A stretch of DNA of 7,462 nt from Victivallales bacterium (lineage in GTDB: Bacteria; Verrucomicrobiota; Lentisphaeria; Oligosphaerales; Oligosphaeraceae). The notes beneath the pieces are model-generated. The model searched no databases. It saw only the letters and a program-made list of their open reading frames with translations, and had not been told where the DNA came from. Shown here in pieces: positions 642 to 6,724 of this stretch. Every line of letters begins with the position of its first letter. The stretch's first letter is position 1. The stretch covers positions 1 to 7,462 of the forward strand of contig JAFRLP010000079.1 in assembly GCA_017431185.1 (NCBI GenBank). The letters are read 5' to 3'. The position numbers were made by a program, and so were the translations under genes.

Positions 642-2039
642 TCAGAAGTCGGCGTTCAGGGGGGCGCGCGGATAGGGGATGACATCACGGATGTTTCCCA
701 TTCCGGTGCAGAAACGGACCATTCGCTCAAAGCCCAGGCCGAAGCCCGCGTGCGGAACGGTGCCGAAGCGGCGCAAGTCCAGATACCACCAGTAGTTGGC
801 TGGGTCCATTTTGAGTTCCGCCATGCGCTTCTGAAGCACGTCCAGCCGTTCCTCGCGCTGGCTGCCGCCGATGATTTCGCCGACCTTGGGCAGGAGCACG
901 TCCATGGCGGCGACCGTCTTGCCGTCATCGTTCTGGCGCATATAGAACGCCTTGATGTCCTTGGGGTAGTTCATCACCGTGACGGGGCCATGGAAAATCT
1001 CCTCGGTGAGGTAGCGCTCATGCTCGGACTGCAAATCAATGCCCCATTCAGGCTTGAACTCAAACTTGTCGGCGTGCTGCTTGAGGAGCGCCACGGCCTC
1101 CGTGTATTCGATGCGGGTGAACGCCGCGTCCGCCAGACGCCTCAAATCGGCGTGAATGCCTTTCTCGACCCGCTTGTCGAAGAAATCCAGGTCAGCCGCA
1201 TTGTTCTCCAGGACGGCGCAGAAGAGGCTGCGCAGGTAATCCTCCGCCAAATCGGCGTCGTCGTGGAGGTCGGCGAAGGCGATTTCAGGCTCAATCATCC
1301 AGAATTCGGAGAGATGCCGGGTGGTGTTGGAGTTTTCGGCGCGGAAGGTCGGTCCGAAGGTATAGACATTGCCCAGGGCGCAGGCGTAGGTCTCCGCCTC
1401 CAACTGTCCGCTGACCGTGAGATTGGCTCGGCGCCCGAAGAAGTCACGCGAGAAGTCCACGGCCCCCGTCTCCTGGTTGCGCGGGAGTTTGTCCAAGTCC
1501 AGCGTGGTCACCTGGAACATCTGCCCTGCGCCCTCGGCGTCACTGGCGGTGATGATGGGTGCGTTAAAGTAGAAGAACCCGCGTCCCTGAAAGAACTTGT
1601 GGGTGGCCATCGCCAGGGTGTTGCGCACACGCATGACGGCGCCGAAGGTGTTGGTTCTGGCCCGCAGATGCGCCACCTCACGGAGCCGGTCAAAGGAGAT
1701 TTTGGATTTGCCCAGAGGATATTCATTGGGCTCGCAGAATCCCAGCACCTCAATCACGGAGGCTTGCAGTTCGACGGCCTGCCCGGCAGCAGGGGACTCC
1801 TTCAGGATGCCCACCGCCCGAATCGCCGCGCCTGGATGCAATTTCTGAATCTCGCCCGCATAGTTCGGCAAATCGGCGGGCGCGATGACCTGAAGATTCG
1901 CAAAACTGGAGCCGTCATTCAGTTCGATAAACGACAAGCCCGCCTTGGAATCCCGACGGGTCTTCACCCAGCCGGCGACCGTCATCTCTACGTCGTACCG
2001 CCGGGTTGCCAGGGCGTCTTTCACCAATGTCCTTTTCAT
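642..2039 (-). CDS. asnS: Asparagine--tRNA ligase (AsnRS)
   Basis: Cytoplasmic class IIb aminoacyl-tRNA synthetase that activates asparagine with ATP and charges tRNA-Asn. The 465 residues match the usual bacterial length (E. coli AsnRS is 466) and align essentially end to end by recall. An N-terminal OB-fold anticodon-binding domain covers about 17-100 ([20 protein letters not shown]). The catalytic domain follows: [11 protein letters not shown] (120-130), the motif 1 region [19 protein letters not shown] (149-167), [13 protein letters not shown] (210-222), motif 2 [16 protein letters not shown] (232-247), ERYLTEE (341-347), [12 protein letters not shown] (357-368), [12 protein letters not shown] (387-398) and motif 3 GFGLGFER (432-439). 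No catalytic residue appears missing. The frame is open for 29 more codons upstream, but the ATG at 2039 has a strong AGGAG five bases before it and begins the conserved domain at the normal place. Candidate promoter at 2084-2112. The PurF-like gene follows downstream. Direct tRNA-Asn charging is implied, though an indirect Gln-dependent route elsewhere is not excluded. Confidence 0.97.
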
Positions 2040-2044
2040 CGTTT

Positions 2045-2049
2045 CTCCT
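2045..2049 (-). promoter_or_regulatory. Shine-Dalgarno site of asnS
   Basis: On the minus strand this reads AGGAG, five bases before the ATG at 2039. It decides the asnS start against the longer in-frame extension to 2126, which would add 29 residues with no counterpart in AsnRS proteins. Confidence 0.8.
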
Positions 2050-2083
2050 GTACACAACGTGGACACAAAAACATGGATTGCAT

Positions 2084-2112
2084 AATATAACCCATCAATG
2101 CCGGTTTGTGAA
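2084..2112 (-). promoter_or_regulatory. Candidate sigma70-type promoter for asnS
   Basis: On the minus strand a -35-like TTCACA (2112-2107) and a -10-like TATATT (2089-2084) are separated by exactly 17 nt. Transcription would start near 2077, giving a leader of about 38 nt before the asnS ATG. This is motif matching only. No T-box or other leader structure was recognised, and there is little room for one. Confidence 0.5.
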
Positions 2113-2165
2113 ATTCCTTGCCCCAAAACCGAAGTGTTCAGGCAAAAAATATGGTTTGGCGTCGA

Positions 2166-2192
2166 TTGACATTGGGCAAAATGGTGTATATT
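2166..2192 (+). promoter_or_regulatory. Candidate promoter for the AraC-family gene
   Basis: A consensus -35 TTGACA (2166-2171) is followed by TATATT (2187-2192) after a short 15-nt spacer, or by the weaker TATTTG (2189-2194) after 17 nt. Transcription would begin near 2199, about 23 nt before the chosen ATG. This supports the short form of the regulator. It diverges from the asnS promoter across about 54 nt. Confidence 0.5.
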
Positions 2193-2221
2193 TGAACAGA
2201 CAGTTCAAGGATGGCACACCA

Positions 2222-3148
2222 ATGAGTGAAGAGACACTTCCATTGCCAGAGCACAACGACCTGCTGGCGGAGGCAGTCCGTTCCATGTCCCCACTGGATT
2301 TCGGCGGTCTGTCGCTGACGCTCTACTATTGCATCATCGTGCTGGCAAAAGGGCATTTTCTCACCAGGGAACACGCCCACCCGACATACGAGATGACCAT
2401 TCATCTGGACGGCGAGCCAATCCACACCTACATCGGGCGCGCCACCGTGTCCCTTTCCAAGGGTTGCGGGAAGGCAATGTTCCTGCCTCCCAGCCAACTG
2501 CACAGCCGCAGGCAAATCACCGAAGGGGAATCCAAAATCATCTCGTTCTCCTTTGGCCTGAACGGAAGAGGAGTCGAACAGCAACGCCTTTGCCAGCAAA
2601 TCGAGGATATCGCGGCCCGGCACGGCTATGTCTTCCCCCTGACCTCCCTCCAGATGCAGATGATATCGGCATTGGCGTCCCTTCCGCCGGACTCGCTGTT
2701 CCGCACATCCTGGATTGCCACAACGCAAAGATGCTTCCTGACAGGCTTTCTGACCTGGAATTTCCCCTGGAATATCCTGCAGCAGGACGGCGGGGCCGCC
2801 GTCGCCTCCCACGAAATCGAGAACGAGATCGTCACCAGTATCTGCCTTTCGCTCAACACAAAAAAACTCTCTCTGCAGGAACTGAGCAGAATGTATGGTC
2901 TGGGCATACGCCAACTCAGCCGCCGCTTCAGGGAACGGTATGGTTGCAGCATCGGTCGCTATCAACAGCAAGTCCGCCTGAAAAACGCCAAGGCCCTGCT
3001 GGAGACCACTGACCGCTCCATCACCGACATCGCCTATACGGCAGGCTTTCCCAATGTGCAGGCATTCTCCCGGTTCTTCCAGAAATACGAAGGGGTATCG
3101 CCATCGGAATATCGCATCGAGGCGGAAAAGCATCCCCGCAATGAGTGA
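2222..3148 (+). CDS. AraC/XylS-family transcriptional regulator
   Basis: DNA-binding regulator of 308 residues, the usual size for the family. The N-terminal half looks like a cupin-type effector-binding domain: EHAHPTYEMTIHLDGE (50-65) and FLPPSQLHSRR (87-97), the latter resembling the P-x-x-x-H element of AraC cupins. The C-terminal AraC DNA-binding domain has two helix-turn-helix units, LSLQELSRMYGLGIRQLSRRF (216-236) and ITDIAYTAGFPNVQAFSRFFQ (267-287), followed by the typical GVSPSEYR (291-298). The reading frame is open upstream to 2006 over asnS. I chose the ATG at 2222 because AAGGA (2207-2211) precedes it by 10 nt and a promoter ends just upstream. A five-codon ORF (2211-2225, four residues plus stop) overlaps the start and is probably chance. 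The regulator lies 171 nt before the prepilin-DUF4838-sialidase genes in the same direction, so it probably controls them in response to a sugar. The effector cannot be read from the sequence. Confidence 0.92.
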   Translation: MSEETLPLPEHNDLLAEAVRSMSPLDFGGLSLTLYYCIIVLAKGHFLTREHAHPTYEMTIHLDGEPIHTYIGRATVSLSKGCGKAMFLPPSQLHSRRQITEGESKIISFSFGLNGRGVEQQRLCQQIEDIAARHGYVFPLTSLQMQMISALASLPPDSLFRTSWIATTQRCFLTGFLTWNFPWNILQQDGGAAVASHEIENEIVTSICLSLNTKKLSLQELSRMYGLGIRQLSRRFRERYGCSIGRYQQQVRLKNAKALLETTDRSITDIAYTAGFPNVQAFSRFFQKYEGVSPSEYRIEAEKHPRNE

Positions 3149-3258: not shown

Positions 3259-3714
3259 TATGCTTGTGCAAATCAAATCGTTTGCCAAATCAAGAAACTG
3301 ACCATCGGAGAATGCCCAAATGAAGGAAAAACCATTCACACTCATTGAATTACTGGTCGTCATCGCGATAATCGCCGTGCTTGCCGCGATGCTGCTGCCG
3401 GCGTTGAGCAAGGCGCGGGAGAGGGCGCGGGTCATCTCCTGCGTCAGCAACCTCAAGCAGATTGGGCTGGACATGGAGATGTACGAGAGCGACTACGGGC
3501 AGAAGCCTTACGGGAAAATCAGTGTGTCAGGCAAAAACGACAACTGCTGCTTCTCCTGGAATCTGCTGCTGTATGGCAACCTGGACTTCAACCTGGACAA
3601 CATCTGGTCAGGCACACCCAAGCAGAACTTCAAGATTTTGAAATGCCCGTCCGACACGTTGCCCGCCGACGTCTCCGACCAGCCGAAACTTTCCTATGGC
3701 TTCAACTGCAACAC

Positions 3715-3736
3715 CCTAGTACTTAATTGAATTAAT
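3715..3736 (+). repeat. Left terminal inverted repeat of the MITE-like element
   Basis: Twenty-two bases pair with 3795-3816 with a single mismatch at 3731/3800. Symmetry ends outward at 3714/3817 (C against C), which marks the outer limit of the repeat. The repeat carries the in-frame TGA (3728-3730) that truncates the prepilin. Confidence 0.85.
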
Positions 3737-3794
3737 CTGAATACACATTTTGAAGAGCTTTTTGGTTCAATCAAGCATGCTTCTATGTAAACGA

Positions 3795-3816
3795 ATTAAA
3801 TCAATTAAGTACTAGG
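3795..3816 (-). repeat. Right terminal inverted repeat of the MITE-like element
   Basis: Reverse complement of the left end with one mismatch. It ends TCAATTAAGTACTAGG. The prepilin reading frame resumes at 3815-3816 immediately after it. Confidence 0.85.
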
Positions 3817-4219
3817 CAAAACGCAGGGCGGGACTTCCGCCAGCGACTTTGGCCTGACCGGTTTTCAATTTGACCCGACGATTGGCAGCAATTATGGCCA
3901 ATTAGGCGGCAACTGGGCGAATAACGTAAACAACAAGGCCGTCAAGAAGGGGCCGTCCGAGGTCACCACCATCATGGACTTGGCGAACAAATGCCGGTCC
4001 ACCAACGCGGGCGTGCCATATATTCAATGGCTGCCAGGCGCCCCCCTGACCATTGGCAACAACGGCGACCCAGACTACTATCACAGGACCTGCAGCAACT
4101 GGCTCTTCTGGGATGGGCATGTCGAGACGCTCCGCCCTTGGAAAATCCACAATTTCACTGTACATTATCTCTACAACAACATGGCCTGGTGATGGCACGC
4201 AAGAAGGAGCCAGACAAAA

Positions 4220-6724
4220 ATGCATCGTCACAACCAATCCCTCCATCTTGGCTTATTGCTCGCCCTCTTCGCCCTTCCCCTGTTCGCCATTGATTTGGCG
4301 AAGGACGGGCGCGCCCTGGCGCGGATAGCCGTCCCGAAAGAACCCGCCCTCCTGGAGAGGATGGCGCTGGCCGACCTCCAGGAGTTCCTGAACCGCATGA
4401 CAGGCGCCACCTTCGAGGCGGTCGAGGAGTCGCTCCTCCGCCCCGGCGAACCCGCCATCCACCTGGGATGGACGCAGGCCGCGAAGGCGTCAGGCATCGC
4501 CTGCGCCTCCCTGGGCAAGGAGGAGTGGGTGGTCAAGGCGGATGACCATGCGCTGCTCATCACGGGCGGACGCCCCGCGGGGACGTTCTACGGCGTCTGG
4601 CAGTTCCTGAACCGCCTGGGGTGCTACGCCATGGCGATGGACTGCTACTCGACTCCAGCGCATCAGACGCTCACGGTGACGGGGCTCTCCCTGCGACATG
4701 CCCCCTCCTTTGCGGGGCGGCTCCTCTACAACGACTTCCCTGGCGCGGCCATCGTCGGCGGCGCCCCCGCCGACCTGCTGGAGCAGTATCGGCTCTTCGC
4801 CCTGCGCAGCGGCTGCAACGGGGAGCAGACCCACCGCCAGAGGCAATATCACTACGGGGACCTGTTCAACATCTCGACCACCCCCTTCCACCACACACTG
4901 ACCCTCTATGTGCCGCCGCAGAAGTACTTCAAGGAGCACCCCGAGTATTTTGCGATGAACTCCCAGGGGGAGCGCTTCGCCCCGCAGGGGTTCGCTCGCG
5001 GCAGCCTGTGCATGTCCAACCGCGAAGTAGGGGATGTCACCCTCCAGTCACTGCGCGAACTGATCAAAAAGGACCGCAGCGAGAGGGCGCCGGAGGAGTG
5101 GCCCGTTCTCTACGACATCTCCCTGCTCGACAACTCCCCCTACATCTGCAAATGCCCGAAATGCGCCGCCATCTCCGCCGAGGAGGGGTCCGAGGCGGGA
5201 CTGCTGTTCCGCTACATCAACTATGTGGCTACGGAGATTGCCAAGGAGTATCCCGAACTGATTATCCGCACCTTCGCCTACTCCGCCGCCCGCAAGCCAC
5301 CGAAAATCACCCGCCCCGTCGCCAATGTGCTCCTCCAGGTCTGCAACGAGTTCCCGAATGCGGATGCATTCCGCCCGCTGAGCCACCCGTTCAACGCCGG
5401 GAACCTGGCGGGGGTCAAGGCGTGGGCCGAGGTGGGCGGCAATTTACAGATCTACGACTACTGGAACATCGGCGGAGGATATTTCGACCCGCCCCGCTGG
5501 GAGACCGTGCTGGACGTCATCCAGCCGAACCTTCGGCTTTTCAGGAGCCTGGGCGCAAAGGCGATGTTCGTGGAGTATGAGCGCGACCACGTCTGCCCCC
5601 AGCCGTTCTATGACCTCGGCTATTTCGTGGCCAGCCAACTGCTGATGGACGTGGAGTCGGATGTGGAGTCGCTCATCGACGCCTTCCTGCCCGCCTACTA
5701 CGGAGCCGCCGCCCCCGCCATGAAGGAACTGTTCACCGAAATGCGCGCAGGGGTCAAGGCGCATCCCACCCGTCAGGCCATCCACACGGCGGGCAACTGG
5801 CAGTACTTCACCCCGAAGAACGCCCTGCGCTACTACCGGACGCTGAAGCGGGCGTCGGAGTCACTGCCGCCCGGCAGCGCATATCGGCAACACGTGGACA
5901 GCGAGCGTCTCACCCTGGACTGGTGCGTGCTGGCCAGGCAAATCAACTTCGCCCCCGCCTTCAAGGAGGCTGGCGTCACCATGGAGTCGCTCATCGCCGA
6001 ATGCGAGGCCCTTGCCCAACGGCACATCGCCCGGCTCCATCCGGCCAAAGACCTTTTCCAGAATCGGTTCCACCAGAAATTCGACAAAATCAAGGTCGTC
6101 CTCCCCCGCCCGAAGAAATTCCGGAATGTGGCTGACGAGAATTTCCGGCTCATCGCCTATCCGCAGGCCACACCATTCCCCCACATCCACTCCGAACTTG
6201 TCGATGACCCCGACTCCATCACAGGAAAGGCCATCCTCTCCCATGGTCCGAGCGGAACGGACGCCGACCACGGCATCGGCAAGATGATTCAGGCCACCCC
6301 CGCCATCCGCGTCCCAAACCTCCAATTCACGCTGGGCAACATCGGTTCCAAGCGGGACATCCACCCCTCCGCGCAATGGGAGATCAGCACCGTGCTCAAA
6401 CAAGTCCATCAGGACGAAAAGTACCACTGGTACAAGTTGCGCGGCGCCATCGACCTCCAGGACAAGTCCTACTTCTGGGCACACTCCTGGGCCATCCAGT
6501 TCAAGACCTCCGCAGTTTATCTGCTGACGGACGGGATGACCGACAACAATGTCTGGGAGGCCTGGGTCAGCGCCAAATTCACGGGTCCCGCGTATGTCCC
6601 AGGCTCCGCCAAGGAGAACGCCATCTGGGTCGATATGGTCGCCCTGACGCGCCCCGGCGCCAAGGGAATCGAGCCGGACGAGCCGCTCCCCGCCATGCAG
6701 ATTCCCCCCTCCCCCACTGAATAG
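4220..6724 (+). CDS. Secreted DUF4838 domain-containing protein, putative glycan-active enzyme
   Basis: An 834-aa protein with a Sec signal peptide: basic MHRHNQSLHL, hydrophobic GLLLALFALPLFA, likely cleavage after Ala23. Residues about 30-150 look like the alpha-beta domain found ahead of GH67/GH20-type barrels, with LADLQEFLNRMTG (50-62) and GRPAGTFYGVWQFLNRLGC (117-135). Residues about 225-500 fit DUF4838: PPQKYFKEHPEYFAMNSQG (232-250), LCMSNREV (263-270) and DISLLDNSPYICKCPKC (299-315). The CxCPxC cluster may bind a metal or stabilise a loop. A helical stretch follows (500-610). The last about 170 residues (WYKLRGAIDL 737-746, YFWAHSWAIQF 751-761) look like a beta-rich, possibly carbohydrate-binding module. 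DUF4838 proteins occur with glycoside hydrolases, but I know no established substrate, so activity is inferred. AAGGAG (4204-4209) precedes the ATG by 10 nt. The gene starts 27 nt after the prepilin stop and ends one base before the sialidase-like gene, so the MITE upstream may exert polarity on it. Confidence 0.88.
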   Translation: MHRHNQSLHLGLLLALFALPLFAIDLAKDGRALARIAVPKEPALLERMALADLQEFLNRMTGATFEAVEESLLRPGEPAIHLGWTQAAKASGIACASLGKEEWVVKADDHALLITGGRPAGTFYGVWQFLNRLGCYAMAMDCYSTPAHQTLTVTGLSLRHAPSFAGRLLYNDFPGAAIVGGAPADLLEQYRLFALRSGCNGEQTHRQRQYHYGDLFNISTTPFHHTLTLYVPPQKYFKEHPEYFAMNSQGERFAPQGFARGSLCMSNREVGDVTLQSLRELIKKDRSERAPEEWPVLYDISLLDNSPYICKCPKCAAISAEEGSEAGLLFRYINYVATEIAKEYPELIIRTFAYSAARKPPKITRPVANVLLQVCNEFPNADAFRPLSHPFNAGNLAGVKAWAEVGGNLQIYDYWNIGGGYFDPPRWETVLDVIQPNLRLFRSLGAKAMFVEYERDHVCPQPFYDLGYFVASQLLMDVESDVESLIDAFLPAYYGAAAPAMKELFTEMRAGVKAHPTRQAIHTAGNWQYFTPKNALRYYRTLKRASESLPPGSAYRQHVDSERLTLDWCVLARQINFAPAFKEAGVTMESLIAECEALAQRHIARLHPAKDLFQNRFHQKFDKIKVVLPRPKKFRNVADENFRLIAYPQATPFPHIHSELVDDPDSITGKAILSHGPSGTDADHGIGKMIQATPAIRVPNLQFTLGNIGSKRDIHPSAQWEISTVLKQVHQDEKYHWYKLRGAIDLQDKSYFWAHSWAIQFKTSAVYLLTDGMTDNNVWEAWVSAKFTGPAYVPGSAKENAIWVDMVALTRPGAKGIEPDEPLPAMQIPPSPTE

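Follow-up and report, generated by a model that had tools for sequence, protein, structure and literature searches.

An AT-rich palindromic insert splits a prepilin-like gene

The window, by which we mean the whole stretch of 7462 bases that was analysed, holds a DUF1559 prepilin-like gene lying between an AraC-type regulator and a DUF4838 gene, together with a tRNA synthetase and two weaker matches (Table 1). For the DUF4838 protein, 7997 candidates sharing the most words were scored and 58 relatives were listed; the best named relatives among these matches (P0011, P0013, P0017 and P0021, 45–48% identity) are labelled Lentisphaeria, which makes a Lentisphaeria host likely. The original prediction had placed a palindromic element inside a prepilin gene, and the N_methyl and DUF1559 matches bear out this location, as does the 258-residue frame obtained by joining the two parts of the gene.

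Table 1 Features of the window and the evidence for each.
Feature	Coordinates	Strand	Evidence or remark
Class II (D, K, N type) tRNA synthetase	642-2039	-	
AraC-type regulator	ORF 2006-3148	+	Domain at ORF end
Interrupted prepilin-like gene, whole	3320-4192	+	N_methyl and DUF1559
DUF1559 prepilin-like gene, 5' part, 136 aa	3320..3730	+	ORF ending at TGA inside the element; Pfam SBP_bac_10/DUF1559 E 1.8e-10, N_methyl E 2e-7
Left CTAG copy (TA at 3717-3718)	3716..3719	.	Exact direct repeat with 3812-3815
Candidate MITE	3719..3812	.	Inverted ends, 27.7% G+C, no open frame, missing from 3/3 homologs; 94 bp if TA duplicated
Candidate MITE, alternative limits	3720-3811	.	92 bp if CTAG duplicated
Left terminal inverted repeat, 18 bp, GTACTTAATTGAATTAAT	3719..3736	+	17/18 against right repeat; 18/22 (including CTAG) against right end of G218 IS630
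Right terminal inverted repeat, 18 bp, GTACTTAATTGATTTAAT read on the - strand	3795..3812	-	Complementary to left repeat; compared with G218 IS630 ends
Right CTAG copy (TA at 3813-3814)	3812..3815	.	Exact direct repeat with 3716-3719
Prepilin-like gene, 3' part, same frame	3816..4192	+	Stop 4190-4192; joined 258-residue frame aligns lengthwise with P0059-P0061; no Pfam family of its own
DUF4838 gene	4220-6724	+	
Start of a gene with weak BNR_2 match		+	Below Pfam cut-off
Weak GATase_7 match		-	Just below cut-off

The best inverted repeat of the window lies at 3715-3816, with 22-bp arms (3715-3736 and 3795-3816) that differ by one mismatch and extend to 31 bp at 84%; the next-best inverted repeat elsewhere in the window reaches 11 bp. 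Across 1000 dinucleotide shuffles of the segment, the longest inverted repeat was 14 bp, compared with the 22 bp observed. When up to three mismatches are allowed, the end pattern occurs twice in the window, as it does in 0 of 200 shuffles, and the single-stranded DNA folding of the segment (z = -5.24) was equalled by none of 200 shuffles. Because the palindromic target CCTAG/CTAGG accounts for four to five bases of each 22-bp arm, the element's own inverted repeat, which starts at the G after TA, is 18 bp long and complementary at 17 of 18 positions. The element stands out from the window as a whole (59.2% G+C) and from the two halves of its host gene (54.4 and 55.2%), and all six of its reading frames contain stops. 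Inverted ends of 22 bp with one mismatch, a G+C content of about 29% in a GC-rich context and the absence of coding capacity had all been predicted, and each holds.

The insert adds a net 96 bp, which is divisible by three, at codon 133 and brings in four in-frame stops (3728, 3788, 3797 and 3806). Since these end the protein at residue 136, the interrupted allele is probably inactive, to judge from its sequence. This truncated 136-residue form is represented by one record, on a contig of 3706 bp. Further listed records place the neighbouring proteins (3320-3730 and 4220-6724) on contigs 3706 and 3755 bp long, each about half of the window; assemblies may break near the element, as at a repeat.

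The flanks rejoin at a single CTAG

CTAG was predicted at both borders and is found there, as an exact four-base direct repeat whose adjoining base differs on either side. These are the only two copies of CTAG in the window, for which base composition predicts about 27. Once the insert is removed, the resulting empty-site window contains 129 TA dinucleotides and one CTAG, and the insertion lies at that CTAG, an outcome of 1 in 129 if TA were chosen randomly.

Joining the flanks at the single CTAG yields one open frame encoding the 258-residue prepilin. A homolog search with residues 60–258 of this product returned three proteins of 257–259 residues (P0059-P0061), which are 84, 76 and 64% identical to it in alignment. 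By protein comparison the insert is missing from all three, and L133, G134 and K135 are invariant across the site. The host frame serves as the internal control for clean junctions that the original prediction took it to be. A segment found only once and at the same position in every orthologous prepilin gene had been named as speaking against that prediction; this does not hold for the three homologs. Together with the anatomy of the segment, the clean empty site in three of three homologs makes the insertion of a MITE-like element well supported. As to the duplication made on insertion, CTAG at both borders is compatible with either two duplicated bases (TA) or four (CTAG).

Searches for the exact ends and for paired copies

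The exact paired ends of the window were found in none of the viral contigs and in none of 294 genomes from the phylum to which L001 belongs, a distant Planctomycetia MAG reached via the DUF4838 protein. Likewise, no transposon with exact GTACTTAATTGA ends was found in the viral contigs and genome collections searched. Single-end patterns in viral contigs matched 14, 3, at least 120 and 26 stretches, depending on the pattern. Within the first set, partners with up to 4 of 18 mismatches that did not overlap their own site occurred near L006, L008 and L014, and these were judged to be chance; in the set of three, partners were seen at L016 (overlapping micro-repeats) and L018. For the single end carrying the A variant, TAGTACTTAATTGA, 121 sites were read, and the best partner within 3 kb had two mismatches at 5 sites, three at 33, four at 78 and five at 5. 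In the last set the best partner had at least four mismatches in 26 of 26 stretches. Among 75 genomes of the class of genome G218, TAGTACTTAATTGA gave two sites lacking close partners, compared with three for the reversed control.

An IS630 subgroup carries similar ends

Among genomes of that phylum, 14 of 99 in one search and 47 of 284 in a second encode IS630-family transposases that clear the threshold of the NF033545 model, and inverted ends were sought around each transposase gene with no presupposed target. The resulting survey comprised 29 usable IS630 loci: 13 of the 30 loci of a first set (L146 and L150-L165 left out) and 22 new loci, six of which were set aside for incomplete flanks. 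Seven of the 29 (L136, L144, L166, L172, L176, L177 and L182) have CTAGT at both ends, and L148 was added as a CTAGT-ended locus through a TA-anchored scan. Some of the remaining loci have TA but not CTAG at their ends (for example L183 and L184), and several show no credible ends. One locus, L179 of genome G123, has CTAGTGCTTAATTGCATAAATT as one of its ends.

The subgroup represented by G218 and G123 has the ends CTAGTGCTTAATTGC. Matches to the pattern CTAGTRCTTAATTG number 27, spread over 6 of the 294 genomes, against one for the reversed control, and the pattern is also present in 11 of 59 relatives of G218, again with a single occurrence for the reversed control; all of the sites listed have G where the window has A. 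In both G218 and G123 the motif adjoins IS630 transposase genes. Twelve IS copies were read in these two genomes, and the other end was recognisable in 11 (the exception being L234), with CTAG there in 10 and with outer flanks that differ; in L229 this end is degenerate. The copy in L217 spans 1151 bp from CTAG to CTAG and encodes a transposase of 357 aa that matches the IS630 model NF033545 at E = 3.1e-69 and contains DDE_3; a PDB sequence search with the subgroup transposase at E up to 1 returned no relative. At L217:1508-1530 the transposase stop codon lies within the terminal repeat, so that the end motif doubles as coding sequence for the C-terminal residues.

Counted from CTAG inward, the G218 IS shares 18 of 22 positions with each end of the window element at its right end, and 14 and 13 of 22 at its left end. 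Beyond the ends the interiors are unrelated (8 of 38 bases). Over the 17 bases that follow CTAG, the two window ends match the IS630 subgroup at 14 and 13 positions. The loci retrieved contain a further 5141 distinct CTAG sites: none reached 14 of 17, and of the three that reached 13, two are diverged members of this family; among composition-matched random ends, 0.04% reached 14 of 17. Chance therefore appears an unlikely source of the match, but the sequence comparison is not overwhelming, since the loci behind the 5141 sites are non-random, many being viral contigs picked by the window's motif, and L179 stood out only after inspection of about 29 IS630 loci, each with two ends. The original prediction had named a lack of related transposon ends in any relative as counting against it; a right end identical at 18 of 22 positions occurs on the IS630 subgroup in other genomes.

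Related transposases were also present in viral contigs. L310 and L311 encode transposases 56–58% identical to that of G218, the former with the ends CTAGTGTCTACTTGC and CTAGTGTCTAATTGC and the latter with a single visible end, CTAGTGTTTAATTGC, and these ends match the window at 9–12 of 17 bases. Judging by these sequences, the subgroup ends retain CTAGT and TTG and drift elsewhere, as the window element would require. Four further viral contigs (L284, L292, L302 and L306) have ends of the form CTAGTGCTTAATTGCATAAAT..., which resemble the G218 family beyond the searched motif and have no close partner within 1.6 kb downstream.

Subgroup ends bound transposase-free elements

Ends of the same subgroup bound 12 distinct transposase-free elements (MITEs) of 106–128 bp, measured TA to TA, in seven genomes; an overlapping row (L270 1469-1607) was removed before counting. 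CTAG flanks 9 of the 12 on both sides, a figure informative for one side only because every copy had been selected for CTAG on at least one side. The borders of the copy in L270 are CTAG and CTAA, consistent with a TA-only duplication or a mutation. BLAST with a G218 MITE copy gave matches in six of six genomes, covering all or nearly all of its length in G218, G050, G240 and G196 (72% identity) and only part of it in G123 and G276. A profile built from the 12 MITEs matched the left end of the window element twice, not significantly (E = 4.7 and 6.1).

In G218, the MITE at L236:1501-1640 directly adjoins CTAGTGTGGTGTTCCGTAAATAACTAG. This sequence is similar to an end of a different IS630 type in that genome (L176), an arrangement that would arise if a CTAG at a transposon end had served the MITE as target. 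A short duplication towards the right end distinguishes two otherwise similar copies in G302, L276:1502-1629 (128 bp) and L281:360-473 (114 bp). CTAG is also low in three loci of genomes with related MITEs, at 5, 3 and 4 copies compared with 11.6, 11.1 and 11.2 expected.

Origin of the element

We consider the element to be a MITE of IS630 (Tc1/mariner-like) type, with a probability of roughly 78%. This reading is favoured by the insert and its CTAG repeat, by homologs in which the site is empty, by the location in the only CTAG among 129 TA, and by the resemblance of the ends to those of IS630 elements and MITEs in other genomes; against it are the failure of the exact paired ends to appear anywhere in the collections searched, the G in place of A at all listed family sites, the low identity to the left end of the G218 IS, the unrelated interior, the profile scores and the membership of the related genomes in a group other than that of the probable host. 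The original prediction, an IS630/Tc1-mariner derivative with TA duplication in a CTAG target, thus stands in part: an IS630 subgroup in other genomes, with a matching right end, a CTAG location and accompanying MITEs, argues indirectly for the family, and the borders fit a duplication of TA alone or of four bases.

In this reading, a complete IS630-family transposon elsewhere in the cell would supply the DDE transposase that recognises the 18-bp ends and mobilises the element in trans. From what is typical of the family, the transposase would excise the 94-bp element and join it to the TA within CTAG, duplicating TA; the element would in this way have landed at codon 133 of the DUF1559 prepilin-like gene. 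IS630 reportedly prefers TA in CTAG, by the title of earlier work.

The genomes with related transposons belong to a group other than that of the probable Lentisphaeria host, and probably to another phylum. A broader proposal, that an undescribed IS630-driven, CTAG-seeking MITE lineage extends across deep Planctomycetes-Verrucomicrobia-Lentisphaerae branches, with the motif CTAGTRCTTAATTG common to full transposons and to MITEs with unrelated centres and with CTAG-poor genomes, is in our view evenly balanced between right and wrong.

The best-placed alternative is a MITE of another DDE family, IS5- or IS701-type, that duplicates the four bases CTAG, in which case the element would be 92 bp long and start TACTTAATTGA. 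The direct repeat is exactly four bases long, so the junction alone does not speak against such an origin; the available sections of a published report describe an element of similar size and target, MITEPsy1 (PMC3189936), and one IS701 locus in our survey (L205) has a four-base CTAA repeat (TTAG/CTAA) and ends starting TAC, more precisely TACGACAACG. It is the comparison of ends that lowers this alternative. Of the seven IS5 loci usable after four of 11 were set aside for incomplete flanks, three (L189, L195 and L196) have CTAGG at both ends, and IS5 ends match the window at 3–7 of 17 bases. None of 11 usable IS701 loci (L208 of 16 rows left out, and four of the other 15 set aside) has CTAGT at both ends, and the ends of L205 match at 5 of 17 bases, compared with 13–14 of 17 for the IS630 subgroup. 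We therefore regard a four-base IS5 or IS701 MITE as unlikely.

Less probable again is a palindrome of other origin, such as an assembly artefact, a regulatory hairpin or a phage-derived piece, that merely resembles a MITE. The segment is known from a single record, given that the truncated protein listed once may be the window itself, and no Rfam family matched in the window. An exact CTAG repeat, a frame restored by joining, and ends related to those of real transposons argue against such an origin, as does BLAST of the segment against phages and plasmids, which yielded nothing beyond short and weak matches (best E 0.08 and 0.8). Finally, an in-frame element retained as part of the protein, the type represented by the Rickettsia palindromic elements, would agree in size, in palindromic form and in a net length that preserves the frame, but is very improbable with an insert that three of three homologs lack and whose four in-frame stops close the host frame, which could be rescued only by reading through or editing the stops. 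Passages on the Rickettsia elements are found in PMC2229807 and PMC10969869.

Preferring the IS630-type MITE, we document a miniature element of this type in a probable Lentisphaeria bacterium together with its likely transposase subgroup in related bacteria, and a DUF1559 prepilin-like gene seen interrupted by a mini-transposon. The end motif and target offer a means of finding more copies, for which 3719-3812 and CTAGTACTTAATTGA can be used as queries.

Comparison with known systems

Such elements were predicted to be little described in Lentisphaerota, which agrees with the open-licence PMC literature: mainly at the level of titles and the starts of abstracts, it contains no report of the element or of the IS630 subgroup under Lentisphaerae, Victivallis, Planctomycetes or the end motifs. 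Mentions of CTAG in the available parts of PMC13349160, PMC6956133 and PMC3055811 concern a primer, a gene name and a primer, respectively. The mechanism itself is already well known, and the element adds a further example of it.

The nearest relatives by sequence, the MITEs of the G218/G123 subgroup, share with the window element the CTAGTRCTTAATTG ends, the CTAG target, the size and an AT-rich centre (28.8% G+C in the G218 copy), but differ in having G as the sixth base and C as the fifteenth, where the window has A in both places, in their unrelated interiors and in probably belonging to another phylum. Among published systems, in so far as the available sections of each paper describe them, MITEPsy1 of Pseudomonas syringae is similar in its length of 100 nt, its 18-nt inverted ends, its CTAG or YTAA target and its interruption of genes; unlike the window element, it has ISPsy2/IS5-like ends (GGAAGG...) and a four-base duplication demonstrated by trapping (PMC3189936). 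The Correia/NEMIS elements of Neisseria, at about 107 or 155 bp, likewise have inverted ends and a terminal TA, but these ends are 24 bp long and the 107-bp form has open frames that fuse with genes (PMC2229807). ISY100 of Synechocystis is of IS630/Tc1-mariner type, with 24-bp imperfect ends, and inserts almost exclusively into TA, which is duplicated; it is a full 947-bp element with a transposase, likened to the window element by type and not by end sequence, and mini-elements with about 30 bp from each of its ends transpose (PMC2170065).

The closest published parallel is the pairing of RUP with IS630-Spn1 in Streptococcus pneumoniae. As the consulted passages describe it, RUP is 107 bp long, encodes no protein, has stops in all six frames, carries ends similar to those of IS630-Spn1 and inserts at TA (PMC2229807, PMC3049150), so that it resembles the window element in being short and non-coding, in its six-frame stops, in its IS630-like inverted ends and in its TA insertion. 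The two differ in that RUP is present in about 108 copies, mostly described as intergenic, with a contiguous inverted repeat of 9 bp (PMC2229807, PMC3049150), whereas the window element is known from one copy, lies in a gene, has an 18-bp repeat, and finds its matching IS, with non-identical ends, in other genomes.
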